Source of the DNA: Apostichopus japonicus
Taxonomy: Eukaryota > Echinodermata > Holothuroidea > Aspidochirotida > Stichopodidae
Reading direction: 5' to 3'
DNA length: 64,000 nucleotides
Assembly: GCF_037975245.1 (NCBI RefSeq)
Contig: NC_092574.1
Coordinates: 11,805,213 to 11,869,212 of the forward strand
In this document: one piece after another, positions 1,080 through 38,848 of the stretch
Position numbering within the stretch: the stretch's first letter is position 1
Layout: the number at the start of each line of letters is the position of its first letter
Made by a program: the position numbers and the translations under genes
Notes under the pieces: model-generated
What the model saw: only the letters and a program-made list of their open reading frames with translations
Database searches by the model: none
What the model was told of the DNA's origin: nothing

Positions 1080-17939
<16,860 letters not shown>

Positions 17940-21073: not shown

Positions 21074-21450
21074 CACTCTTAAAAGTTGGGTAAAAATATT
21101 GACCAACACTTAACCAACACTGGGTACATATGTAACCGCTCAAAAAATGGGCAAAGTTTGCCCAACAGCAGTTGGGTAATGCATTTACCACGTAGTTGGG
21201 TAAATTATTTTACCCATTATTGGTTAATTTATAAAGTAAGTTGGGCAATTTGTTGCCCAAGATTGGTTAATGAATAAAATTGTATTGGAGTGTTTTTACT
21301 CAATGTTGGTTGATTGTTACAATTAGTTGGGCAATTTGATACCCAATATTGGTTACTGAATCTAATTATATTTGAGTGATTTTATCCAATGTTGGTTGAT
21401 TGATACAGTTAGTTGGGCAATTCGTTACCCAATATTGGTTGATGAATGAA
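21074..21450. repeat. Left terminal region with subterminal GTTGGGYAA array
   Basis: Inverted end followed by many GTTGGGTAA/GTTGGGCAA motifs in both orientations, for example TTGGGCAATTTGTTGCCCAA. Three direct repeats of about 80 bp follow, each with TTGGTTGATTG..AGTTGGGCAATT..ACCCAATATTGGTT. Such arrays are typical transposase-binding subterminal repeats (inference). Confidence 0.8.
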
Positions 21451-21481
21451 ATGAAATTTACACTAGGGTTTATATAATTAT

Positions 21482-21485
21482 AATA

Positions 21486-21516
<31 letters not shown>

Positions 21517-21886
21517 TTTTAGGTTTATAGTCTTGTTCAGGGCCAAGGCCCTCTCACACGACTTTACAACTTAACCCTGGTCATTGGTAACTTGTCACAC
21601 CTACACACCAAAGTGTGCACAATTCAATCAATCTCTCCTGGGGCACCACAGTGCACCACAACCACGTGTCCCCCGGGGGACTTCCCATAGGGTGCAGCCA
21701 CAAACCGGCGCAAACAACTATATTTACAAGTTACCTCGCAAGTCCCCATTTATACACCTGGGTGAAGAGAGGCAATGGAGATAAAGCGCCTTGCCCAAGG
21801 ACACAACGTGATGATCTGGCCAGGGCTCGAACCTGTAATCCATAGATCACAAGGCCACTGCCTTAACCACTTGACCACAACGCCCG
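21482..21886 (-). mobile_element. tRNA-derived SINE with (ATT)n tail
   Basis: On the minus strand the head at 21886 reads GGGCGTTGTGGTCAAGTGG, with an A-box-like TGGTCAAGTGG (21877-21867) and a B-box GGTTCGAGCCC (21833-21823) at tRNA-like spacing. Next comes a body phrase GTGTCCTTGGGCAAGGCGC, widespread in metazoan SINEs. The element ends in an AAT/ATT repeat (21482-21516). It is nested inside the left arm of the 16-kb element. Confidence 0.85.
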
Positions 21887-21889
21887 TTT

Positions 21890-23370
21890 AAAAATATTAA
21901 CATATAAAATAGTATTAAATTCTCATTTTATTGATGTAAACAGCTTCAAAAAGCTTCACTAGAACTAACCACACATAAAATGGTTTCACAGAATTTAGCA
22001 ACATGGTATTGTTGGTTGCAGTAATCTATTAACTTACTTTATATCATATTGTGTCAATATGTTCATCATGAAAATGTATCAATGTATGCTTTGCAAATTT
22101 GCTTTAGGACTTGGAACATGAATATTGACATACAAGTTCATCATGAAACTACAATTTATTCTCTTCATGGATAAAATTAACCTTAACCTACACAACATTG
22201 CTTGCTTCTTGCCCACTGACCAATTTGTAACAAGTGTTGTTTACAGCTAAGCCTTTTTTGCAGTTAAAGGTGATTGTTTTCACTAGACAGTCTATTAAGT
22301 GCTAAGAAATTTGAGCACAGAAGCAAGGAGTTCAACAGGAAGTGGCAAGTCCTCATAATTATTTCATGATAATTATATAGATATAACTAGTAGTGGACAC
22401 AAATATGGCTCAATGTTAGAAAAGGAGTACTATTTATGATATATCAATGGTTAATTCCAACATAAGCAGTCTTGTGCAGCTATAACATATTCTTCTTAAT
22501 GCAAACTGACTTGAATGGAACACACATGGTATCACACATACAAACCTCTCATATGTCTATAATGTCTTAATTGTTTGTAATTTGAGCACAATTTGTAAGT
22601 ATAATGATATGATATTTACAGACATAAAAGGAAAGGTCAATGATGGTGCAGGTTTACCTAGTTCTTCAAGTCAATGCACAATAAACATACCGAAATTGTA
22701 TATTTCACAGGCACCTAGGAATTTTCACACATATCAAATATGAATCCCTAACCAGTTCTCTTTAAAACTTATTTCAATGTTAAACTTTGCATACATCATG
22801 AAAAAGCATGACAATCACAAAACTTTTTAAAATCTAGCCCTAGTAGTTATAAGTGTAAATTTTTGATTACCTGCTTCCCTTCTCAAGAATAGTCAGATCT
22901 GTACATTTGACTTAAAAAAAGACCCTCAACTGTGTCATAAGCAGGATCAAAACAACATCAATGTGTACACGTTATGGAAAAAAATGATAAGATGAATTTG
23001 ATAAGCAAACGTATACAAACATTTTTTCCCATGAAGACACATAAAGTCAGTGCATGTTTATGAAAAATGATAACATGCAAAGAAGTAAAAGAATTTTAAG
23101 TTACAAAAACCAACTTAATTATTGAACCAATAAAATGATTAAAAGCAGCAAGGTCCGGATCCAAGAAGTCATAACTTTTTGTTTAAAGAAAAACTGTAAC
23201 AAAGAGAGATGTCCATCGCTGTATCGTTTATACACTGTGCTGTTTGTACTGACTGCAGCTGTTTGTACTGACTGTATACTAGTGTCTATTTACTGACGGT
23301 AGCAAGCTGTGTTTGTATTTTCTGGGATCGATGGTGGTGCCTAACACTTCTGTTACACCTCAGTCAAAAC
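21890..23370. other. Non-coding interior of the 16-kb element
   Basis: AT-rich sequence without a recognised exon on either strand. It lies between the nested SINE and the stop codon of the 115-aa gene and probably includes that gene's 3' UTR. Confidence 0.5.
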
Positions 23371-23374
23371 TAGG

Positions 23375-25692
23375 TCAGATTTCCGGCATTAGACGTTTCT
23401 TTTTGCGCGAGTCTTCACACCCTTTAAAGCAAACACCTATTGCTTTCAGTAGGGATGGTTGTGGCAGAGCATGTCTCTCGAGAATAACATAGGCCTGGGA
23501 TGGTGTTAGGTGGGTGCCTCTGCACACTACAAAGGGCTGTGGCGTCATGTCCACATTGATAGTCCTTGCGTATTCTTCTATGTCAACATCCTCCTACAGT
23601 TATAAAAGAAAAGGTACAATTTATTCCTGACTGTTACTGTAATTTATTCCTAACTGTGAGAGGGACATTTCAAAAAAAAAAAAATGCAATGCAGAATATG
23701 ACCGTGACACCTTCGTACTGAGTAGTACTAACCTTAGTTAGACAGAACAAGAAAGAATGTAACTGCTGACTGCTGAGCACACACAGCTAACAGCATCTCT
23801 GACCAGATTCCAGAATAGACAAATTATGTGAACTTGGAATTTCCGTCACATGAAGCACGAGATATTTTCTCTCATAATAGCCATAAATTCACATTCATAA
23901 CATAGGTGACCTTGCAACTTTACACAGATTCAGAATAATCTTTTGGTCATGATGCGCTTTTAGTATTTATTTCATGTAGCAACTTTGAACATTCATACAT
24001 TACAGTAATCTTACTAGTGTTTCCTCAACCAAATACTTAGACTCTGCAGTGAAGGTCAAGCGAGACATCAACATGCCTAACAGTTTTGGTATGACACGGC
24101 TGGGATTAGAAATCGAGCCCCGCCTCCTGGATGGCTCTGACCACTCGTTTTTTCCATTATGTAGCTTATATAGGTGAGCGTGGGACATGATAAATATTTT
24201 GGTGGGGTGGGGGCGGGGGGAAGGTTTCCCAGCATTTCATGACAACAAAGTTCCCTGATGAATTTTCAAAATTCCCTGATGATTAGTTCAACCTATTTCT
24301 AGTGTGATATGTCTTTGCACATTTTGGACATGAGCCAATATATAAGACTGACTGCTCTCTTGGGCCAATCAAATTCCCTAGCTTTTCCCTAATTTTTGAG
24401 ACATTTTTCTCAAATTCCCTAACTTTCCCTGACTGGAAAAAGGGAAACTAATTTTCAAGGTTCTGCTTCCATTTTCCAGGATGGCTGGCAACCCTGCTAA
24501 CCAATCTGCCCTCACAACCCCCCCCCCCCAACACCCAGGAAAATAATTCTCAATGACCTTACGGTTGAGAAACTATGATTTAATTGTTGTGTCTGTTTAT
24601 TCACCTCTCAAAAGTGGATGATTTGTACAGTTTTTAGACCCTCTAATGTGGAGAAGTTTCTTAAAAGTTAGTCATGAAAGGGAAACACAAATAACATAAA
24701 ATTTATTACTAGTTGACTACATGATCTCTGTCAAGTTAAATGTACCTTATTTGCAATGGGAATCAGATTATGAAGCAATTCCAAATTAAGATCACAAAAT
24801 TCATTGATTCATGCATGATTCCAACAAAGTTTACCTTTTTGAATAAACTACTTACCGGCTGAACAGTGATGAAGCTTTTCACGGATTGCTGTGCCAAGCT
24901 ATGGCCCCTTTTACCCTTCACACCTCGTAGTATTACTGATAGCATGAAGACTGCAAGGTTCTTCTTTTGATCTGTGAATTAGAGCATATCATACTACCAG
25001 TGTTTGTAGGTAGGTACTTAAGTTTTATGGGTAATTGTTCTCAACAAAGGTTTAATACTGCCATCCACAGCTTTTCATCCAGGTTTGGAGTGCTAAAATA
25101 GGTTTCCCTGTTACTTATTTCCTTTTCCCTGTTCCAGTTAGTGTGTATTACGTAAGAACATGTAACATTTCTCAAAAGAGCATTGCATGTACATAAATCG
25201 GAGCATGGTACCTGTAATGGGAATTTAAATTTAAATATAAAACCTAGACATTTTGTAATTCCTTGGGGACCTTGGCACATAAAATGGGTTATTTACTCTC
25301 TTTTTTTAGGTAAGAACATTCATCACTATAAAAAGAATTAAAGCAGCATTTTGCGTCATTTTCCCATGATTTTCTCAACCTCATTGACCCCACCATGCCA
25401 TAACGACATACATAATAAGCTTATCTATTCAACTCTAACTTCAAATCGTGGAATAAAAGTCGCAAAATTTAGAACTTTCAACGTTGTTTTTCTCGAAGGT
25501 CTTTTCCGTTAGGATCTCAGTAAACCCCGCCTATATATGAATATTCAAACACGATGAACGTTATTGCATAACGTGGTAAATAATAAACAATGATCAGCTG
25601 ATTGCAAGGCATCGCGAAGCGACAGATAGTGTAGGCAGGCTACATAACGTTACTTCAGCCTATACATCTACATCGTTACCAGGCTTGTCCAT
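23375..25692 (-). CDS. 115-aa protein of unknown function, 3 exons, in the 16-kb element
   Basis: Exons on the minus strand: 25692-25680 (ATGGACAAGCCTG, phase 1), 24971-24856 (acceptor TTCACAG, donor GTAAGT, phase 0) and 23593-23375 (acceptor CTGTAG, ending TGA). All phases agree. The protein has a hydrophobic/basic start (KKNLAVFMLSVILRGVKGKRG), a middle SFITVQPEDVDIEEYARTI, then FVVCRGTHLTPSQAYVILE and LLKAIGVCFK, ending in a basic tail (DSRKKKRLMPEI). From memory, the last block resembles the C-terminal part of uncharacterised transposon-linked proteins in fish and invertebrates, but I cannot name a domain. Its ATG lies 74 bp from, and divergent to, the ballast-domain gene, implying a shared promoter. 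The 13-nt first exon is the weakest part of the model. Confidence 0.65.
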
Positions 25693-25766
25693 CTCGCATG
25701 ACAGTGTGCTGATATTCTCTACTGCAAAAGAAGAATTTCGCAAGAAGAAATTTGCTCACCCTTAGC
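25693..25766. promoter_or_regulatory. Divergent start region between two element genes
   Basis: Only 74 bp separate the ATG of the minus-strand 115-aa gene (25692) from the ATG of the plus-strand ballast gene (25767). A shared bidirectional control region, probably extending under the first exons, is inferred. No TATA box is evident. Confidence 0.4.
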
Positions 25767-27534
25767 ATGGAAACAAGAAATACCAATGTAAGTTCCTATC
25801 ATTTACCAACACTGTCGGAAAATTCTTCATCTTTGTAGATGTACTCTCCGTTTTCCGCGATCGCTAGATCGCGGTATACACTAGACTATGCCTATACACA
25901 TGTGTGACCAAACTACTCTTCTGTACCGATGTTAGGGTAACTTTAGGCCTAACAACAAACCCATATCACGACGAACTTAACGTAGTGTAGTGACGTTTGC
26001 GAATATTTGCTTAGTTAAAATGAATGTCGTCTAGTGCAGTGAGTAGTTAGATTTAATGTTAGCTAGGCTTCAGGAATGTTAGTTTGACCCATGAATTATG
26101 ATGGATCATAAGCAAATATGCTCCAAAGGTTATCTCTAAAAGAAAAACAAACACTATCAGTTGGAAAGTAAATAACTATCTTATTTCTTCTGTCATAATG
26201 TAGCAGTCCTTAGGTGATTCACCAGAAACACCATCAAGGAGGACATCTGGGAGAAGGGGAAGGAGGGGTACAGGCCGTGGAGGAAGGGGCCGTGGTGGAA
26301 GAGGTGCAGGTACGCCTCGGTTGACAGCAGCTGCAGCAAGACAGCAAGTTGCTAATCAACAGCAGGAGAGGACAGAAAATATCAGGGTACATAAAGTGGC
26401 TATATTCTCATTTACTATGTTTCTTTGCTTTCATTACAAATCCTCTCAAGAACATGTACTCAAACACGGGAGTCTCTGGGTGTGTAAAAAAAAAATAGTT
26501 TGGTGTGGAAAGGGTACCAATACTATTTCTTAACTTCTATGAAATTAACTTTTCGAGTTATGAGCATCTTTCTATGTGAACCAATATGACAAATGCCCAT
26601 GACTGTAAAATTGACACTGATAATTTATCATGGAAGGAGTGGGAGAGGTGGTTGAGAGAGGATAGGAACATAAAAAAACATAAGCTTACAGTTTTTGTCA
26701 TAAGGTTATTTTGGGTATTACATTTGAAATGCAACATAACGTTTGTGGCCTCTTTCAGGAAATGATACACAGAGTGGACTCTGAACAGCTGCGAGAGCTC
26801 GTTCTGCAGTTGATGAACAGCTACCCTGCTCTCTTTTTTGATATTTGGGAACGTCAGCAGCACCCACAGCGTATGACAATCCCAGACTCACCTGGCTGGT
26901 GCACTTGTGAGAGGTGCAGAGAAATGCCAACAGTAGAGGAACGGGTGTGCTGTCTAGGGACAGGTGACAACTGTCTCTCTCTTAGACCGGTCAGTACTGT
27001 TTTCTTAATGTTTTATCTGGAACCCAAAATTTGCTTTGTGGCTAGCAATAGTGCTCAGTGATGACAGCATAGACAAATTAAATTTCTTTTACAACTCAAG
27101 ATAACAAAATATGTTGTTATGACATAACCTTCCGTGACTAAAGTGTTATTTTCAGCAATCAGTTTAAGAAGTTTATAGCATATGGCGTCAGTGACAAGAA
27201 CTGAAAGACTATAATGGGTGTTTTAATAATTGGACATAACTTTCTACAACTTCAATGTCATATTTTCCAGGAAATTGATACTGTGGTAATTGACCCTTTG
27301 GTCCTTGGTGTCGCCCGAGAACTAAGAAGAGCCATCTGTGGCGGTAACAGAGGAGAAGAGCCCAACAAAGCCAATAGACATGCTGCATACAGACAATTTG
27401 TACTGTGGCATTATGGTCGCCTTGGCAACAGAAATAGGAGAGCAGTTCCCAGTTGTGTTGTCTGGCGGATCAGGTCCACTTTTCCTGACCCACATGATAA
27501 CTATGTTGGGTACATTCCAGGTAGATTGCTTTAA
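25767..27534 (+). CDS. P2X7-type ballast-domain protein, stand-alone, 4 exons (232 aa)
   Basis: Exons 25767-25787, 26204-26386, 26759-26989 and 27271-27534 have GT..AG introns, all phase 0, and the frame is open to TAA. Residues 8-68 are an Arg/Gly-rich leader (GRGGRGRGGRG), a likely nucleic-acid-binding or disordered segment. A helix with WERQQHP follows, then the Cys cluster GWCTCERCREMPT (C116, C118, C121) and VCCLG (C132, C133). Next are ELRRAICGG (C168) and YRQFVLWHYGRLGNRNRR, then PSCVVWRIRSTFPDP (C207). This order matches the cytoplasmic ballast domain of vertebrate P2X7, which coordinates zinc and binds guanine nucleotide. No channel segments are present, so this is not a P2X receptor. 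It converges on the transposase gene. Its role in the element is unknown. Confidence 0.88.
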
Positions 27535-28946
27535 TGTTTTCATTTATCTTTGTTAGCTATTCTTGCCGGTATTCAATTTTTCTTCTTCACATTTTTCTAT
27601 TTACTTACATATATGTTTTTATACTTGCCATTAATCAGACTATTTTTTCACTTCTTTATCGTTCATTTGTTATGCCATCAAAAACTGTCATTCCAAAATC
27701 ATCTTTATTTTTATATCACATATTTTCTATTTACTGAAAAGACTTAAATCCAAAACAGTTTTTCACTGCTTCACTCACCCACCCTTCACTTCTTTCAAAC
27801 AGTAGTTTATTTTTTTAAGATGACCATCTCCATTGGTTAATATAACAAAAATCATATAAATGTCTACACACAAAAAACCTAAATTAAGAACTTTTATCAG
27901 TACTTAGTATCCTACACAGCTGCAGATTTCACCTTGACTCTACGAAGACACATTCCATGGAAACTTCTGTTTCTTCTTAAACATACTTTACCATTTGTTA
28001 CCTTGCTCTTTTGAATTACTTGTTTCTTTCTTTTTTCTAAGAGTTCTTATCAATTTGTTGTTGGAAGTTGCATTGGCCTTTCATTACTTGTGGTACTACA
28101 ATATAGTATTTTTGGTCTTTCATAATTTTTTTCTCACATATGCATGCCCAGCCTTTCTATGTATGTGAAATATATGAACAGTATTTATAAACTGCATTGA
28201 GTTTTTTGCTTTCTGTGCTATTTTGTTACAAAATATACCATTAGGCTGGAAAGGAAAAGTCTACATCGCTTGATAATGATGCCTACTTTTATGGAATGGG
28301 TCAAAGTTCATCTGGGATTAAAATTGTTAAAATTGTGAAACTTGTTAACATACTATCTCAAGGAGTACAAGTCAGGACAGATAACAGGGGTAGTAAAGTG
28401 TAAAAACATAAGGACAAGAAGCTTATTGTTTTTTGGGGAGATCAAAGTTGAGTTCAGGTCATGAAGGTTACACAATGAAAATCCTTTGAAGATTCCTAAT
28501 TAAGGGGAGCTTTGCTGTCATACAGTTGTAACACACTGCATGCACAGGAAGGTGATTTTTCTTGGGGGAGGTAAAATGGTTCAAAATGAGAGCATATGCA
28601 CAATATCTGCAAAAATCAGGAGGGGGGGGGGGTGGGAGCTGAACGATTTAACATGGTGATATATTACATTAACTTTAGGCCAAGAACGGCCGAGAATGCA
28701 ATGCTGGTCACATCTCAGTATTCTAATACTTTTTCCTGTACATATATTACATATTACAAATAATGACAGATTCGTAACAAACTATGGTACAGTAGAACCA
28801 CAATGCATTTATTTCCCATAACATTTGAGCATAAGCTTTGGGAACCATATTCGTCCACTACAACAACATGTAACAATTCTCCCACCAGCCCCCCCCCCCC
28901 CCCACCCCAACCTGAAAAAAATAAAACATTTGAGTGATGGCTAAGA
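27535..28946. other. Spacer between convergent element genes
   Basis: AT-rich interval between the stop codons of the ballast gene and the transposase gene. It presumably holds both 3' UTRs. Poly-G and poly-C tracts occur near 28620 and 28890. No further exon recognised. Confidence 0.5.
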
Positions 28947-31900
28947 TTAAAGAGATGAACTTGCTTCCATCCTGCTCTTGTGATTTTCAAGAAGTTGATG
29001 GACAGATGGTGGTTGGTTTGGGCGTATAGTCCCGGAGATGCGCCTGGGGTCATCTTCTGCCAAAACCACATGACTTCGTTGGGACTTATTATCAATGAGC
29101 CTCCTTCTGAATACATCTTTCATTAGTTCTGGAATGTACTTGAAGGTTTTTTTTTGCATGACTGGGACACAGGTCCATCTACCTGCAGATTTGGAATAAT
29201 TTCTTGTGAAACTGCAAGAGAAAATGAAACAAAACATATCAGTTCATATTTCTGTACTTGCAGGCCTTAATAAAGGAAAGTGATGTGATGATAGTACAGT
29301 ATGTAACTTACACAGGTTCCCCATCTCTTTCTGCTTGTCGTCTTCCTTTGTGGTGTTGGTAGTCGATACCAGCTAACAAATTTCTAGCCTTATACGAAGG
29401 AGGGCTGAAAAAAATGTAGGAATTGAAACATTACATGATTTCATACATGATTATTACATGATTTCAATGAGATTTCATAATAAATGAGCAGAAATCAAAT
29501 CTTGGACAACATACTTACCCATAGGCAAACCGCTTGGCAGCATAAACTAGCACATGGCTCTGGAAATTTTCTAGTGCTGATGTGTGTCTGAAAGTGATAT
29601 GAAGGAATATTCCATAATTTAAGGAGAAATTTCCACTGCAACTAGCCTGAAAGTATTTTCATACTTCTAGCTGCTCATCATTGATTACTTCACCACGTGG
29701 CAGGGCATGTGCAAGATATCTAACAATATCCTAACAAAAGGGTAACATATATTCAAGATTTGTGCACCAAAACCAGTACCTGAACTTTGTGTAGTATTTG
29801 ATGTTTCTTATAAGATTCATGTCAAGCACAATCTCTCTCAGTGCTGCATGTGCAGGAGAGTCTGGTTCAAGGTCCTTCTGACTAGCTGGTAAAGGTCCAT
29901 GCTGGCAACATGCTGGACTAACTCCATCACCTAGAGCCCATTCATGATCTCCAACAACATGGTGAAGAATTCCCTTCCAGTTTGCCTTAAAAGGAAAGAA
30001 GAGATCATGACATGACAAGGATAAAGGTGAAATAGAAAGTATAGCAGAATTCCATCACAAGAAGTATTTATACTGGCTGCCTAACTTAGTTAAAACGTTT
30101 ATGACTGAAGTGCATGTTTTGAATGTAATATTAAGTCACAAGAACATATTTAACTTACAAAAAATGTGTCTGCACTTCCATCTGCATGCTGTGAGCAGTA
30201 CCAAAAGTGCCTTGTTATGTCACTAATCCATGGCATGAGTGGCCTGTTCCTTGCCTTTTTTGCTGCCTGAAGAGAAAACAGGTAACAACAGGATGTGTTT
30301 GAGGTACATTATTTTTAGATCAAAAGAGAAAAAATAATCATGTTGACATATGAAACACAAGGCAATCGGACTTACCTCACTCAATTTCTTGCCAATATTT
30401 TTTGCCCCATGCCAAACGTCAAACGAATGAGTGGTTCCTTCAAGACCCTCTGTACAGTAGACAGAAAAGAAAAACTTCAAATATACCATGTGGGTGACAA
30501 TGGAATCCGTGTCTTGGTAACTCAGTATGATAAAGAATTAAAAAATCTGCAAATGAACATTATTCTAAATGAAAGCTTACAAAGCAATATAATTTTTCCT
30601 TGTGTTTAGTACAACCAGTCATAAGACAAGTATATGTGAACATACACACACACATGAAAAATATTGTGCCATCAACAAGCCTACGAAAGTACATCAATTG
30701 CTTACTTAGGTAAGATTTAATTTGTGGGTGAGCATCTGTAACTACTTCCTCAACCTTTACATCGCTCTTCTCTAGCGTCTCCAGTGCTCGTAAGAAAGCA
30801 ATTTTTTCCATGTTGGTCGACTTTAAGTCAGCTTCCCTCTTGTCAACAACCTGAATGTCCAGTATATCGCAGGTTTCATAATCCATTACACTGTAGGTGC
30901 AGTATTGTGCACAGTGCCCAGGACTGTCATTCCTTCCGTCACCTGTTGAAGAAGTACCACATAATCATGAACACATATCTAAACAGTAAAATTATGTACA
31001 TCATGAAAAAATTGCCATTATATATGCCCCTGACATGCAGGGCTGTAAAATATTAATTACACGACTTACCAGCGATAACTACTGTTTTCCCTTTCCTTGC
31101 AAGTAATAGCTCAGTCTGAAGCTGCTTCCAGTGTGCCTCAATTGCCGGAAAGGTGTAAGTCCTCTGGCTATAACTGTGGAGAGCAGAGTGGCACATACCA
31201 AGGTTCATAAACCTAAACATCATTTTGATTTTTGCGTAGTTATTTCCAGACAGTATAACTGCAGCTGAGACTGCTATATCTCCCGCATTATTCCCTTTAA
31301 GCTTTGGCTGAGAATGCCAAATCTTGCTCACGTGTCCATGAGCACAAATCTGGAAAAGAGACAAAAGAAGTAGTAATCAAATAAGTGAGAACTAAATATA
31401 TATAAAAAAAATATTAACAAGCAAATAAGCCTCTAACTACCGAGGGCTACAGTAGTACCAAGGTTTTTTTTGAAGGTCAAGCAACTTTACCTGCTTAAGA
31501 TATCATGTTCACAAGGTTTAGGGACTCTGACCTCAGTTGCCCTTTGATCTCCATGAAAAACAAAAGGGATCATCTACTGACCTGGCACTTAAAGATGTAC
31601 CAAGTGAAGTTTCAGTTTTATGATACAGTATTTACAGAGTTGTGTAATTTTGACCTCAAATGACCTTCGACATCCATGAAACTTACTAAGGATCACCAAC
31701 TCACCAAGGGTTACACATATACCAAGTTCAAGTAATGTTTACTTTTTTAGTTATCTTGTCTATAAGCAAGTGTCACCTCCAAGGCAAAGATGCTATTTGC
31801 CTTTGGTGAGAAATAATTTAAATTGAGGGATAACTTAAATATAGTAGCCAAATCTGGACTGACAAAATGCCAAATAGAAACTGAAACGAACCCATTTCAC

Positions 31901-34867
31901 ACCAACAGCAGTTCCGACAAATTTTGTGACCTCTTGCGGAGGAGACTGGCAAGATTCTCTAACACAAGACTTAGGTCTACAATCCTTTAGTAGTTGCAAA
32001 AGGGACTCCTTGTAAGTTATGAATAGAGTATCTTCTGCACATGCCTCTGAACCTGTCCCATCATCTACATCCTCATCTTCAGACTGATCAGTCTCTGCAA
32101 AGGAAAGAATGGTGTCCAGGTCCAAATCTGCTGGTTGTTCTGGATGACTGTAAGAGAAAAATAAAATTGACATGTGCATTTAATAAAGGCATTAATTTAG
32201 CCCTGATTCTCTTTTATTCCAACAAAAAGGAGCGGATATATATAAGATTTGAGGCTGAAGTCAAGAAGCAGACATACCTAACGTTGAGATCAACACTCAT
32301 GTCAGAGGAGTCGGCATCTTCTTCACCAGAATCCCAGTCAGGGTCAGAGTCCCTGTCAATTGAGCCTGGGGTATCATGTGGAATGATGTAGTCCCCAACA
32401 TCAGTGTAGTCAAAACTTAAACTGAAAAAAAAGTAATAACAATTTAAATTCTCTGACACATATTGGAATCATCTAAGGTAACATTTTTATATCCATATAT
32501 TTTTTGGGTGTAAAATCACAGTCTTACTGTGAAAAGCTTGACCCAGGGCTAAGACGTTTGCATATGAAAGCATTTGAAACTGTTTTGTTACACAAGCAAG
32601 ATATGTAAAAGCAATGAATGTAAATGTGAATATCTGTCGTAATGAGTGACCCCAAAGGAGTTGAAAATACAAAACCAAGGGCACCAGGTTATTGAAAAAG
32701 GATTACATGGACCCGAAAATTTGAAATGTGGGAGACTGAACCACATCGCCTTCGGGTATAACTTGACAAGGCTTAGGTACTTGATTGCAGCACCACATAA
32801 ACTGCAAAATTTTCAAGAAAGGTTTCTGCTTTTTCCATAACTATCCAAACATGCATACTTAAGTTGGTCAGCGGATGATGTTTCTCCAGATAAAAATGGT
32901 GTTGTAGCTGGCAGTGCATCTTGACTTGAAGCAGACATACTTGACACAGGTGTTGATGTCATCAGGCCTATGTTTGGTGTTTTGCAAGGAGAGTATGCAG
33001 AGTCAACTCTGAAAGTAAAAATACATGTACAGATAACACTGCAGCGAAAGCAATATATTGGAGTATATGAATAATACATTAGAGAATTCAAAGAAAAGTC
33101 TGGCAAACTCAAGCACCACAATAAATCATTTTAACTGGAGTGTGTAATTTTTACATCTTGAAATTTGATTTCCTTGTTATCATTTATTGTTGGATTAATT
33201 CAGCTTTTGTGTGACATATTAGAACAATACAAGCAAGTGCACTTGTCTTAACTATATCACAATATCTAAAACATAATGCAATGAGATGTATCTATGAAGA
33301 GATTGCTTCAGCAAGCTATTAATACAGATATAATAAAGATATTTGTGAGTAAGTGACTTTGTTGTTTGGTCTTGCCGCTCAAATTGCTAATTAGTTGTAG
33401 ATATCACCGTTGAAGCCGCTGCGAGGGAGGATGTATTTATAACTGGAACAAAGATATTAGGATATGGGATTTGTTGAATAACTTGGAATATACAGTCAGC
33501 TTAATGGGACACTGCTTCGTTCTTCTATGGTAAATTCTATTACAGTATATTGTCATGCTTTCTCAAAACTGAAAATAATAAATCTTAAACCACTATTACA
33601 ACTTTCACAGGCTTGAAATTAACCAGGCTTATTAAACAAATGGGGAAAAGGGTACAAAGCAACAATGAATGGCCACAACATCCTGTTTAGAGCTGACAAT
33701 GATGACAAGACTGTAAACATACTGTAGTGTACAATCTCAAACCACATAAAGAGAGACTCAATCTCTTGAATGATATCCTTGACCACAAGAGTTACTGTGC
33801 ATTCATTATGCAATGCTGCTTATCAACAGGGTGGTTTCATGAATAAAGACCTTTATTGTTACATTTCCCTTCTCTTTGTTCTTGCTATGATTCCCTATGT
33901 TGATACTCACGGTTTGGAGTCAATAACCAAACACTTTTACAAGCAAATACTATGGCGATCCTTCACTGATCTTGGGCACTGAAACACAATTTCTCATAGC
34001 ACTTAAAATTGAATTTGTTACCAATATTATAGGCAATTGCATTACATTGTTCTGTGGCTGCATTGAGGTAAAGTTAACTGAAGGTCTTCATATGAGGATT
34101 ATGAGTATAAAATTCGTAGTTGCTGGTGAGAGTAATATATCATTTTGGCTATAACATTCTCACCCTAGCTTCTAAGATCAATAAGATGTTAAAGGATTCT
34201 AGCCTAGCCCAAAGTACACCTGCTTTTGTCAACTTCCAAGCATGAAAAAACATGGTCACCATGCATAGGCTATGTTCCTTTACGAAACAGAAAGGTAACT
34301 AGCCTATACCAGGACACTTCTTCTTCTTTTACTTTTTTATTTTTCCTTGTTTCTGAAGAGAATATCCTTCTAAATTTTTGGTAGAAATTCATTCCGTTGT
34401 CGAGCGTGCGTATAAACGTTCAAGCATAAACGATCGTAACAGCAAATACTAAACCTAAACTGCTCTGTTCACGTTCTAAAGTCGGGTTAGGCAGGCGTAG
34501 CGTAGGCCAAAGGCTTAGGTCTAGTAACGAAGTCGTATGAATACACCGGCAGTTTGATATTCTTTTCTTGTTTCACCAATCAAGAATTTGCAGGTATGCC
34601 TTAGATTCAATGAATTCTAGAACTTTTATGTCGTAGCAAGGAAGAGATTACTCACCTATCTAGCAAATATCGAGCGACCTCCGTGTCGTTCTTCAGCCCC
34701 AACTTCTCCTTCAGTTCGGTCCATCTTTCTACTTGATTCCCTAGGTGAATACGGGTGGCTTCATACCTTTGCTTTTGAGTCTTCCGCCACTTTCTCTTTT
34801 CCAGTGAAGTAAGGTTCTTCAAACTCTTGTATTTTCCTTTTGCGCGCTTCTGTAAGTTCGCTTCCAT
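28947..34867 (-). CDS. DDE-type transposase-like protein with D(2)H motif, 12 exons (697 aa), intact
   Basis: Exons (minus): 34867-34656, 33008-32859, 32421-32278, 32147-31892, 31349-31070, 30942-30706, 30449-30376, 30266-30159, 29985-29780, 29587-29519, 29404-29312 and 29211-28947. Every phase matches and no internal stop occurs. The N-terminus is basic with a helical WTELKEKLGLKNDTEVARYLL. An acidic Ser-rich linker follows, then a metal-ligand-like C.HGH..KIWHSQPK. The catalytic region reads GDGRNDSPGH (D349, D353), VVTDAH (D417), FDVWH (D437..H440) and DHEW (E502). The D-x2-H motif is described for hAT, P, MULE and Kolobok transposases. With TTAA-flanked ends, Kolobok is the best guess. 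The donor after exon 4 (GTTCGT) is unusual. The ATG at 34867 was chosen because the upstream in-frame codon is GTG. High intron number is odd for an active transposon. Confidence 0.85.
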
Positions 34868-36958
34868 GATAGAATAAGTTTTCACTTTGCCGGAGTCGAA
34901 AGCAACCCAGTATATCGATACGTACTACAATGCAATGCTTTAGTTTGTACGGTGTATTTCCAGGGAGTTGGTATGTCTGTGATACCCACGCACACGCAAC
35001 TTTTTCGGGTTGTTGTGAATGAATCTATTTTAAGCAACGGCTCATGAATATACATACTATTCACTGATTGGTGGAATTCAAACTAGTGGATTTGGAGAAA
35101 TGAAAACTTTGTCGTGAACACTCTTACTCGTTATCGACATAAATCGTTAATTACTCGCTAATTAACGCTCTTGGCAGGGTGAAACTTGGATGGTATCTTA
35201 GTTGACTGTTTTATGATTAATACATGTAAAAAAATCGATGCACATGTTAAAAAGGTGGGAAAAAACGACCCAACGCAAAATGCTGCTTTAAGTCCTAATG
35301 TTGCCATCTACAACCCTGAGACAATTGAAAAATGTATATCCCATTTAGTTTCTTTAAAGTACCTTCTGTCACTAACCCTTCAAAAATGTCATCCTGGTGT
35401 CAATCTTTGGTATGAGCTCCTTCATAGTACTTTCATGATTCATCCAACAAGGACAACGCAGCATTGTCTATCTCATTCTTTGAAATAACAACAACAAAAA
35501 ACTAGCATTTAAAGAAAGTAGCATAAAGTTTTAAAATCAAAACAGTGCCAAAAAGGGAGGGGAGAATTCATTAAAAAAAATTGTTGCACCTTCGTCAAGT
35601 AGTGATTTTTTATGTTTTCACTGTAAGCAGATAGAGTCTTAAAATCTACATGGTTGTATGTGGTTATCGTGAAGAAAGTTACAACCGTTTTTGATACCAA
35701 AATGACACAGTTTGGGCCAAAAATGTTTTATTCAAAGAACTACATTACCCTCCATGACACCCTACTAAATGGAAATGGTTTTTTTCATTTCTTGAAAATG
35801 ATACATGATTACCACGGGTCAGATATTTGGCTGTGAGCCAGCAAAGTGATGATATATATAATATATTATAAATCAATGCAAAATTACCAAACAATTTTTT
35901 TATTATGCCACACAACTTGGTTAACCAAACCAAAAGGTCATCGAAAGTTCATTATGGTTTTAATATTTTGGATAAATGCATACACCTAGCCTTGGCATAG
36001 GCCCCTTTAAGTTTTATCATTCAATTTATTTATACCTGAAAAAGAAAATGATAGAAGGAAGAGACATATTTTTACATGTCAAAATCTTGTCTTTCTGATC
36101 ACATAGTCTCGGGCCTACAGATACGCCTACTGTACCAGTTTTGTGGAAATTTTGCAGACGTAGGATCTACTGTACACTTAAAGTTAAACCATAAATTTAT
36201 GAATATTGTGAGGCTGAGCCCCAATAAAAATCAACATTTGTAATACTGAGGCGAGGTATAAATTAGTAGTTTCTTGTCCTGCCTGCATCCTTCTGCCCAC
36301 TGGGTCAATTTCCTTCCCTTTTTTTAATTTTCAAATTTGAACAACCAATTTACCCAAATTATACCACAGAAATTCCCCTTCTGATCACACTCTCTGTAGG
36401 TTAATTGCCTGCACCCTCACTTTTTCTGAACAGTTAGGAAAAGAAACTATTTTATTTATAAAAATGTGATCAATATGGCCCAGGCAATACTAGCATTTAT
36501 TTAAGTTATATTTGTAATATATGACCCAACTATATTTTAATAGTAAGTAATATATGACACTCAAACTAAGAAGTTTTCCAAAACAATTTTCAGCAAGCTA
36601 GTATGAAGGTGACTTAGTTAAGCCTATCCTTAGTGACATCTTAATAGTTTTCTTAACTTTCTTCAGAAAACTGAAAAATGTGAGCCTAGGACTGGTGAAG
36701 TGTCATCAACATTACTTATCCCACGCCAGACACAAGCATAACGTTATACTCCGTAGCCTAACGTATACGCAAGCGCGCTCTATCTTGTGCAGCAGAGTTA
36801 GGCCTAGCCTACGCACGGGCTACGAACACAATATATACTCTTGAGTCTTGACCTAACGTTTGGAAATTGCCAAGTCTGTAGGCGGACACAGCCTAACGTT
36901 AGCTAGGCCAAGTAATATTCTAGCCAATCCGTTTGGGGGTATGAATACTATACCTTCA
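34868..36958. other. Upstream region of the transposase gene, no exon confirmed
   Basis: AT-rich sequence with short open frames lacking coding character. It may contain 5' UTR or an intron linking the exon candidate at 37041-36959 to the transposase exons. Confidence 0.4.
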
Positions 36959-37041
36959 AATGATTCCTTCAAGTCTTCTACCCCCCAACTTCGATAAAGT
37001 GTCAACACATCACCATCATCAACCGGGAACGAGGAAGACAT
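36959..37041 (-). CDS. Candidate first exon, SAM-like start, near right end of the element
   Basis: An ATG frame reads MSSSFPVDDGDVLTLYRSWG, then VEDLKESFE, before a possible donor G|GTATAG. The L..WG...L...F pattern resembles the first helix of SAM-like domains. No continuing exon was found with certainty. Splicing in phase 1 to the AG at about 34886 would join it to the transposase frame upstream of its ATG, but that acceptor lacks a good pyrimidine tract. It could equally be an unrelated short frame. Confidence 0.3.
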
Positions 37042-37219
37042 AATTCAAAATATACTCATGAATGTACCAAAGAATATTCTACTGCACATCGATCGTATGT
37101 ACCGTATCTAGTAGAACTGTGCTGTTATCACGTCGCAACGCGCAACATGCCTTCACTACTACTCCAGCGTAGTTAGTATACGAATGTACGTTCACAATGA
37201 TCACATTGCAGTTCGAATT

Positions 37220-37399
37220 GTACGACAATATTTTGGCGGGAACATTGCCCAGACGTTGGGCAAATGGACTCGTATATATACAGGATAAACGTTGGATAAT
37301 TGTTTCCAACACCATTTTACCCATAATGGTTAAAGAATTAACCAACATTTTCTTAAAACATCTCTACCCAACAAATTTTTGCCCAACGTTTTAAGAGTG
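37220..37399. repeat. Right terminal region of the 16-kb element
   Basis: Contains GCCCAGACGTTGGGCAAATG, then TTTTACCCATAATGG and TTAACCAACA, ending in GCCCAACG and TTTTAAGAGTG. These mirror the left end's GTTGGGYAA motifs in inverse orientation. Confidence 0.75.
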
Positions 37400-38015
37400 C
37401 ATGCATCGAAAGGGAACCAAGCTTGGGAGTAGATCAAGTTGCAGGTTTTTGTGCCAAGGCTCTATCTTGGGTAACTTCTCCCTTGCAATATCAAACGGTC
37501 CGACAAGTCACTGACCAGAATGTAAGTCGCTTTCGTCCAATCAGAGCGCTAGAAAATAACATGCGACACTGGTCGTTAAATGAGAGCACAAGAAGCTGAG
37601 ATATGTCAACTTAATTCGACATATGTCGATTTCAGGACTAATGGCACACTATATGCGCACCATATATGTCTCTAGATCATAACGATTCCCACAGCTGCTC
37701 GAATGGGCTTATTTCATGTTGCTATCGTTGGAATTAATATCGTTGGAATACTTTGAAAGCCTTGGTTTAGTTTGAAAAGGATGATTATGATGACACCTAC
37801 GACAAATGTGGTAACAGGTGCTTGATTTATGGTATTAGGGAAGTTAAAGGGGAACAAAAGGTAATTTGACTTCGGTTTACTAGAACCAGTGTGTCTTTAT
37901 AATGAAATATGGAAACGGTTGCAGCAAAAATAAAAGAAACAAGAAACAAGGCAAATGACATTCTAGGATTAGTGTGAAAATGTATATAAAATTTTACAGA
38001 CAAGTATGTACAATA

Positions 38016-38017
<2 letters not shown>

Positions 38018-38082
<65 letters not shown>
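38018..38082. repeat. (TA)n microsatellite
   Basis: About 32 TA units. Confidence 0.95.
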
Positions 38083-38084
<2 letters not shown>

Positions 38085-38433
38085 AGATACTGCCTAGCCA
38101 AAGGTCGTGTTCAAAATGTCAGTATCTCAGTGGCCTTATTCCAGTTTAGGACAGGAGAAGAAAATATAGATCTTTGTGCATATTTTTTATGTTTCCACCT
38201 TGCATAGTTTCATCACTGATATTGTAGTTAGACAACATGCAGTATAAGATCGAGGGAATTCAGTTACTATAGCACCGTCTCACTCCTTATCATTTTGTTG
38301 ACTAATTTTTTGTTGTCTCTTCATCTCTGTACCGTATCACTTATTGTGTGTTTTCTGTTCGTTTCATTGAAATGTCCCTTTTTTTGGTCAACTCTTGTAA
38401 GCTTTTAGTTCGTTTTTTTCTTTGTATATATAC

Positions 38434-38848
38434 CAAGGTTGTCCAACCTTTTGCAGAGGATGAGGTCACATGGAATGGTTATGATGAAGGAGGGGCCGCA
38501 TGAACCCTACGCTCCTTTTTTCGATTTTTTTGCGCGAAGCCCAAGGCAACAAAATGTGAGCACTGCGCGCGGAGTGCACTGATATATTTTCCTTCCTGAT
38601 AAAACAGATAAGTTAAGTCCAGCCGGCACCCCCCCCCCCTCCCCTCCGCTGAGAGAGTGTCACACAAACTGACCCGTATGCAGTTTTTGGACCCAGAAGG
38701 TTCGAATGATTGATTATATAGCTTCAAATTGTTATCAATAAATCTGCTCACTAAATTTTACACCGTAGAGCATCTCTGGCGGGCCGGACGCAACCCTGCG
38801 TTGGGCCGGACTGTGGCCCGCGGGCCGTAGGTTGGACATGCAACCCTG
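38434..38848. mobile_element. hAT-type MITE (415 bp)
   Basis: The left end is CAAGGTTGTCCAACC. The right end read in reverse is CAGGGTTGCATGTCCAACC. Flanking 8-mers ATATATAC (38426-38433) and GTATATAC (38849-38856) match 7/8. Near the right end GGGCCGGAC and GCCCGCGGGCC recur, a style common in hAT MITEs. No coding capacity. Confidence 0.75.

Follow-up and report, generated by a model that had tools for sequence, protein, structure and literature searches.

Do the matching inverted ends of this locus in the sea cucumber Apostichopus japonicus frame one large transposon with three genes, or has one element entered another? The window, which is the whole stretch of 64,000 nucleotides that was analysed (C14:11805213-11869212), had been predicted to contain a single 16-kb unit that combines an intact DDE transposase, a P2X7 ballast-domain gene (KolX, below) and a small orphan gene. 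We conclude, with high confidence, that 21074-37399 consists of two nested DNA transposons, a young two-gene Kol0-type Kolobok inside an older outer element. As predicted, the transposase and the ballast-domain gene do reside together in one mobile unit. However, that unit is the inner element (25338-35290), which has its own TTAA borders and is separate from the outer ends. The two elements and the borders between them are as follows.

21074..37399: outer element, unclassified; terminus CACTCTTAAAA...GTTGGG; CA 2-bp target duplication in the window
25334..25337: left TTAA target-site duplication of the inner element, from border comparison
25338..35290: inner element, Kol0-type Kolobok, 9,953 bp, 15-bp terminal inverted repeat AGCAGCATTTTGCGT
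35291..35294: right TTAA target-site duplication of the inner element, from border comparison

The two elements were separated by searching the window's own assembly (671.6-Mb, 35-contig) with four queries: the left end, the right end, the ballast gene and the transposase. All counts are lower bounds; 40 of 3030 candidates were scored for the left end, and all first-look candidates for the ballast gene, right end and transposase (7, 20 and 10, respectively). When 20 extracted stretches were aligned, copies of the ballast gene and transposase matched window ~25335-35293 and not the outer parts, with the exception of one 220-bp outer piece in L011. Eight outer copies aligned only outside ~25335-35293, and none of the eight matched the inner genes.

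The inner element is bordered as TTAA-AGCAGCATTTTGCGT ... ACGCAAAATGCTGCT-TTAA, and its termini are AG...CT. Near-full copies with TTAA on both sides are present on C16 (9,917 bp), C21 (10,062 bp) and C17 (two, 9,943 and 9,947 bp), and these four and the window copy are 98.2-99.9% identical pairwise. A fifth other unit, on C7 (C7:10.55-10.57 Mb), is also TTAA-bounded (4935-14835 of the joined stretches L018/L017) and is a mosaic Kolobok: the first 3 kb, with KolX, is 97% identical to the window, and the transposase half has ~68-79% DNA identity. The two genes are not single-copy; the TTAA-bounded transposase-ballast pair recurs at five other loci, in four different flanks. Compared over 800 bp, the flanks are alike in just one pair, the two C17 copies (99.5% and 98.3%), which are therefore probably one insertion that was later duplicated, leaving five independent insertions when the window is counted. 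The duplicated locus (C17:4.37 and 4.49 Mb, L013-L016) holds Kolobok copies that are 115 kb apart and 99.9% identical, with matching flanks. Nested in the C7 element is a ~620-bp internal-deletion derivative (L018 7053-7673) that keeps the two Kolobok ends and is flanked by TTAA left and right.

Among the five aligned copies, both frames are open only in the window on our exon map. C17a keeps KolX open, and the remaining other copies are broken in one or both frames. Ballast DNA occurs at six other loci in the same genome, five at 98-99% identity and one degraded, and the transposase gave no match in the stretch read at the degraded locus (L019/L020). Transposase and KolX do not always go together: of the ten loci with transposase DNA, nine were read (all except C16:30.70); six of these have KolX in the same unit, one (L034, below) is without KolX exons 2-4, and in L032 and L033 the 4.6 kb read towards KolX contained none.

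An empty site records the insertion. A second C14 locus (12.25-12.28 Mb) holds just one TTAA at the point occupied by the inner element in the window, and is 99.2% identical to window 22834-25341 (2,514 aligned positions), 99.3% to 35288-37381 (2,096 aligned positions) and 97.2% to 37512-38500. Window positions 25341 and 35288 meet there with a 4-bp overlap, TTAA: the empty site reads AAAGAATTAAGTCC, and the window reads AAAGAATTAA-(inner element)-TTAAGTCC. The window's outer copy lacks a ~0.38-kb piece, including part of an exon, that is present in other outer copies, and the empty-site locus shares this loss by comparison with L021 and L027. Everything of the outer element upstream of 22834 is missing from this locus, as are the final 18 bp of the outer right end, and we therefore consider it a rearranged duplicate and not an allele.

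The outer ends are genuine. CACTCTTAAAA is found at 21074-21084 (+) and 37389-37399 (-), as the original prediction had it, although these ends do not bound the transposase/ballast unit. The terminal arms, 28 nt long, are 75% complementary, and the terminus is CACTCTTAAAA(A)GTTGGG. The predicted GTTGGGYAA arrays also hold up, with 9 matches in 64 kb compared to 1.15 expected (at least 9 in 0/100 shuffles), all of them in 21085-21420 and 37255-37387. TA flanks both outer ends in all five other copies with both borders read (L021, L022, L025, L026 and L028), and CA flanks both sides in the window. The left terminus in L021 is CATTC. The TTAA beside AAGTTGGG (inside CACTCTTAAAA) was rejected as a target duplication; it is constant in outer copies, and the sequence beyond CACTC varies. 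The outer element in the window is interrupted twice, by the inner element and by a short repeat near its left array.

21085..21452, + strand: outer element, left subterminal array with GTTGGGYAA motifs, 2.9 copies of an 86-bp period
21473..21885: ~413-bp dispersed repeat in the outer element; other outer copies match the left-end query at 1-399 and then from 813 on

The ~413-bp repeat is present in at least 25 other places in the same genome at 95-99% identity. To our eye it has a tRNA-like look; comparison with Rfam and ARAGORN gave no matches. In L024, a 1013-aa open reading frame that is reverse-transcriptase-like (named by eye) interrupts an outer copy at 2279-5317.

The small orphan gene belongs to the outer element, with which it travels, and not to the transposase/ballast pair with which it had been grouped. 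That there is a third spliced open gene agrees with the short open exons found.

23420..23593, - strand: orphan gene exon; all eight outer copies and the empty-site locus have it, some of them with stops or gaps
24856..24972, - strand: orphan gene exon, from exon comparison across outer copies
36952..37041, - strand: orphan gene first exon (MSSSFPVDDGDVLTLYRSWGVEDLKESFEG), from exon comparison across outer copies

A further exon, with what appears to us to be a C2H2-like pattern, is present in L021, L023 and L024; Pfam assigned it to no family, and the window has no match to it. None of 529 candidate homologues reached E <= 0.001, the candidates being limited to 0.55-1.75 times the query length, so that long relatives could be missed. 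Pfam gave no families for two of the exons; for an earlier joined version of the gene it gave two, with E above 0.07 and below their cut-offs.

At least 14 other loci in the same genome carry the left end, and at least 13 carry a near-complete right end, with fragments besides. Other copies of the ends were expected to carry both genes, and none does: neither the ballast gene nor the transposase is within 30 kb of the end at any of the 14 left-end or 13 near-complete right-end loci, and for the left end neither is found within 4 Mb. The closest that an inner gene comes to any other outer end is 34 kb, the distance between a transposase and one of the right ends. Both outer ends are present and matching in the window, and they could thus be imagined to form a composite in which the CACTC ends now mobilise the whole 16 kb, with the Kolobok as cargo. 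We consider this very improbable, since the end searches of the genome found the whole 16 kb in no second copy, the open reading frames read in outer copies included no recognisable transposase, and the retrotransposon-like insertion in one outer copy is what passive targets would show. A single 16-kb transposon with TTAA-flanked GTTGGG ends and three genes aboard fits the real and matching ends and subterminal arrays but has next to no chance of being correct, as the 11 left-right pairs of outer ends span 3.3-10.2 kb and none is near 16 kb, neither gene is at any of the 14 left-end loci, the inner copies have unrelated flanks, and the reading is refuted by the empty site with its single TTAA.

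Among known systems, the outer element of this nested pair comes closest to CACTA/EnSpm-type transposons, with which it has in common a CACT-type terminus, subterminal repeats and a short 2-bp duplication. It differs in that no transposase was recognised, by eye, among the open reading frames read in outer copies, and it is treated here as unclassified.

The inner element can be placed more closely. As set out by Kojima & Bao 2022 (PMC9587614), Koloboks have 5'-RR ... YY-3' termini and a DDD/E transposase with a C/DxxH motif between the second D and the last E, and in almost all lineages there is a zinc finger between C/DxxH and E. Families of the Kol0 lineage, known from vertebrates, annelids, cnidarians and sponges, have one gene for a DDE transposase and a second for KolX, a protein with the cytoplasmic ballast fold. 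In the sea cucumber, the 4-bp TTAA duplication flanks the window, C16, C21, both C17 and the C7 copies, with a single TTAA at the empty site; AG...CT is of the RR ... YY type; the transposase has D349, D417, D437-VW-H440 and E562, and its DDE fold matches have low TM; and KolX has the P2X7 ballast fold. The inner element thus matches a Kol0-type Kolobok, the lineage being placed by features and not by a tree. It is like the Kol0 lineage (Kolobok-1_XT type) in its TTAA duplication, RR/YY termini, C/DxxH DDE transposase and KolX, and is set apart from the named Kol0 families as a separate family, in a sea cucumber. The family is new; the pairing of transposase and ballast is already in print (PMC9587614).

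The same paper traces P2X7 to a fusion between a P2X4-like gene and KolX. The suggestion that receptors captured the ballast domain from such elements matches this published view, and the main biological surprise of the original prediction had therefore already been reported. What the locus adds is a clean example, with its empty site, of a ballast-carrying Kolobok with both frames open, and a false 16-kb composite unit is removed from the record. In addition, the published claim that the tail of P2X7 came from KolX becomes testable, in that one can ask what KolX did before its capture. Rump et al. 2020 (PMC7016195) describe ballast genes throughout Metazoa as linked to two markers, and these two markers might be candidate neighbours inside the same transposon.

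The transposase gene is open and spliced, as predicted, with 12 exons, 697 aa and no internal stop.

28947..34867, - strand: DDE transposase, 12 exons, 697 aa, from the exon map
34867-34656, 33008-32859, 32421-32278, 32147-31892, 31349-31070, 30942-30706, - strand: transposase exons 1-6
30449-30376, 30266-30159, 29985-29780, 29587-29519, 29404-29312, 29211-28947, - strand: transposase exons 7-12

An additional exon at 29730-29665 was rejected; the frame breaks there, and it is absent from the protein P0001. Using a query that included an 18-residue stretch from this rejected exon, we found at least 147 homologues at E <= 0.001 (7,990 candidates scored) in holothurians, bivalves, a brachiopod, hemichordates, urchins, a crinoid, amphioxus, fishes, lungfish and others. 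An alignment and tree were made with 30 of 120 listed homologues, which were not classified by lineage. D417 and E562 are invariant in the 30, and D349, D437 and H440 are kept in at least 90%; the C/DxxH motif, D437-VW-H440, lies between D417 and E562. The columns of H495/H496/H501 and C514-x-H516 are also conserved in these homologues, and could be candidates for the zinc finger of the published description. In the tree, the inner-element transposase sits with Holothuria and one other A. japonicus protein, beside Pecten and one further sequence, with support of 100 for those five sequences. An A. japonicus relative of the transposase, P0009 on C3, has AAGTR in place of the GDGR motif and lacks the H of DxWH, and may be decayed or domesticated.

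A weak structural model made from P0001 (pLDDT 74.9) had three PDB matches at <=0.001, namely ISCth4 (2.2e-6 and 7.8e-6) and the P element transposase (8.4e-4), and TM (query) to the best matches was only 0.26-0.30. In Pfam, the nearest transposase model (Mutator) fell below its cut-off. The P element transposase (6p5a) is like the inner transposase in the DDE fold match (8.4e-4) and in the C/DxxH signature class that Kolobok and P are reported to share (PMC9587614), but identity is 10% and TM is low (0.26). The P element enzyme binds GTP in cis (PMC7776569).

KolX is likewise an open spliced gene, as predicted, of 232 aa in 4 exons.

25767..25787, + strand: KolX exon 1 (METRNTN), from protein P0121 and copy alignment
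26204..26386, + strand: KolX exon 2, Arg/Gly-rich leader, from protein P0121 and copy alignment
26759..26989, + strand: KolX exon 3, first 6 of 7 zinc-site cysteines, from Pfam and P2X7 comparison
27271..27537, + strand: KolX exon 4, RHAAYRQ...PSCVVW...IR, stop included, from Pfam and P2X7 comparison

Its product is the NCBI A. japonicus protein P0121 (100% identity over 100% of length). The gene model matches Pfam P2RX7_C at 9.1e-26, and the 232 aa of P0121 contain this domain and a below-cut-off PRR20 only, the P2X channel domain being absent. All 38 homologues found at E <= 0.001 have PF20478, and phmmer relates KolX to P2X7 at 3.3e-10. Similarly, all 14 Foldseek matches of the KolX model at <=0.001 are P2X7 (the model is a weak one, with pLDDT 70.4, compared to 48.5-63.6 for the other four). 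The seven zinc-site cysteines are in register with those of the rat P2X7 ballast (PF20478; 6u9v). With pocket residues taken from PMC7016195, P2X7 R546, H547 and R578 correspond to KolX R181, H182 (10/10 aligned rows) and R213 (9/10), and at R574 and K583 KolX has V209 and D218, so that two of the five pocket residues have no counterpart. KolX differs from the receptor in having no channel domain and in the Arg/Gly-rich leader in front, a leader also present in relatives from mussel and amphioxus (P0125, P0150).

How might such an element move? The empty site documents that the Kolobok inserted into a TTAA of an older outer element, the one with the orphan gene. The Kolobok's own transposase would cut the AG...CT ends, insert into TTAA and leave a 4-bp duplication. 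Precise insertion into TTAA with a 4-bp duplication is seen, recurrently, at several sites; from the fold and residues D349, D417 and E562, we infer cut-and-paste catalysis by the DDE transposase. KolX could help the transposase to bind or assemble the ends, with the Arg/Gly-rich leader perhaps contacting nucleic acid, and on balance we lean towards KolX being an accessory transposition protein of this kind.

It is less likely, in our estimation, that KolX is a regulator or an anti-host-defence cargo protein and not part of the transposition machinery. In favor of such a role, the copy in L034 (C17:19.03 Mb), with ~88-92% identity, is without window 26204-27520, which is almost exactly KolX exons 2-4, and the deletion junction has a few bp of overlap. 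This copy shows that an element can persist without KolX in cis. However, the association of KolX with Kol0 has been reported across vertebrates, annelids, cnidarians and sponges (PMC9587614), and the same paired arrangement is kept with the diverged transposase half on C7, findings that a regulator could also accommodate.

More speculatively, the accessory protein that we favor might be a trans-acting guanine-nucleotide module that binds GTP/GDP through R181, H182 and R213 and helps to position the transposon end. It would then be a separate-protein counterpart of the in-cis GTP-binding insertion domain of the P element transposase. We raise this rather improbable idea because guanosine nucleotides have a binding site in the P2X7 ballast (PMC7016195), because the insertion domain of the P element transposase employs GTP when the DNA end is positioned (PMC7776569), and because Kolobok and P fall in one C/DxxH class (PMC9587614). 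In the literature collection searched, we found no paper that joins Kolobok, GTP and P2X7, and the main text of PMC9587614 uses neither GTP nor guanosine. If the idea were true, the guanine pocket of P2X7 would have come down from a site that once served a transposition cofactor.

A search of viral_contigs gave 19 pattern matches to KolX, none of which was confirmed. On an ENA contig of 55,834 bases, one protein (P0155) is listed with both a piggyBac-type DDE domain (PF13843) and a ballast domain (PF20478), a pair that agrees with a published note on piggyBac families (PMC9587614).
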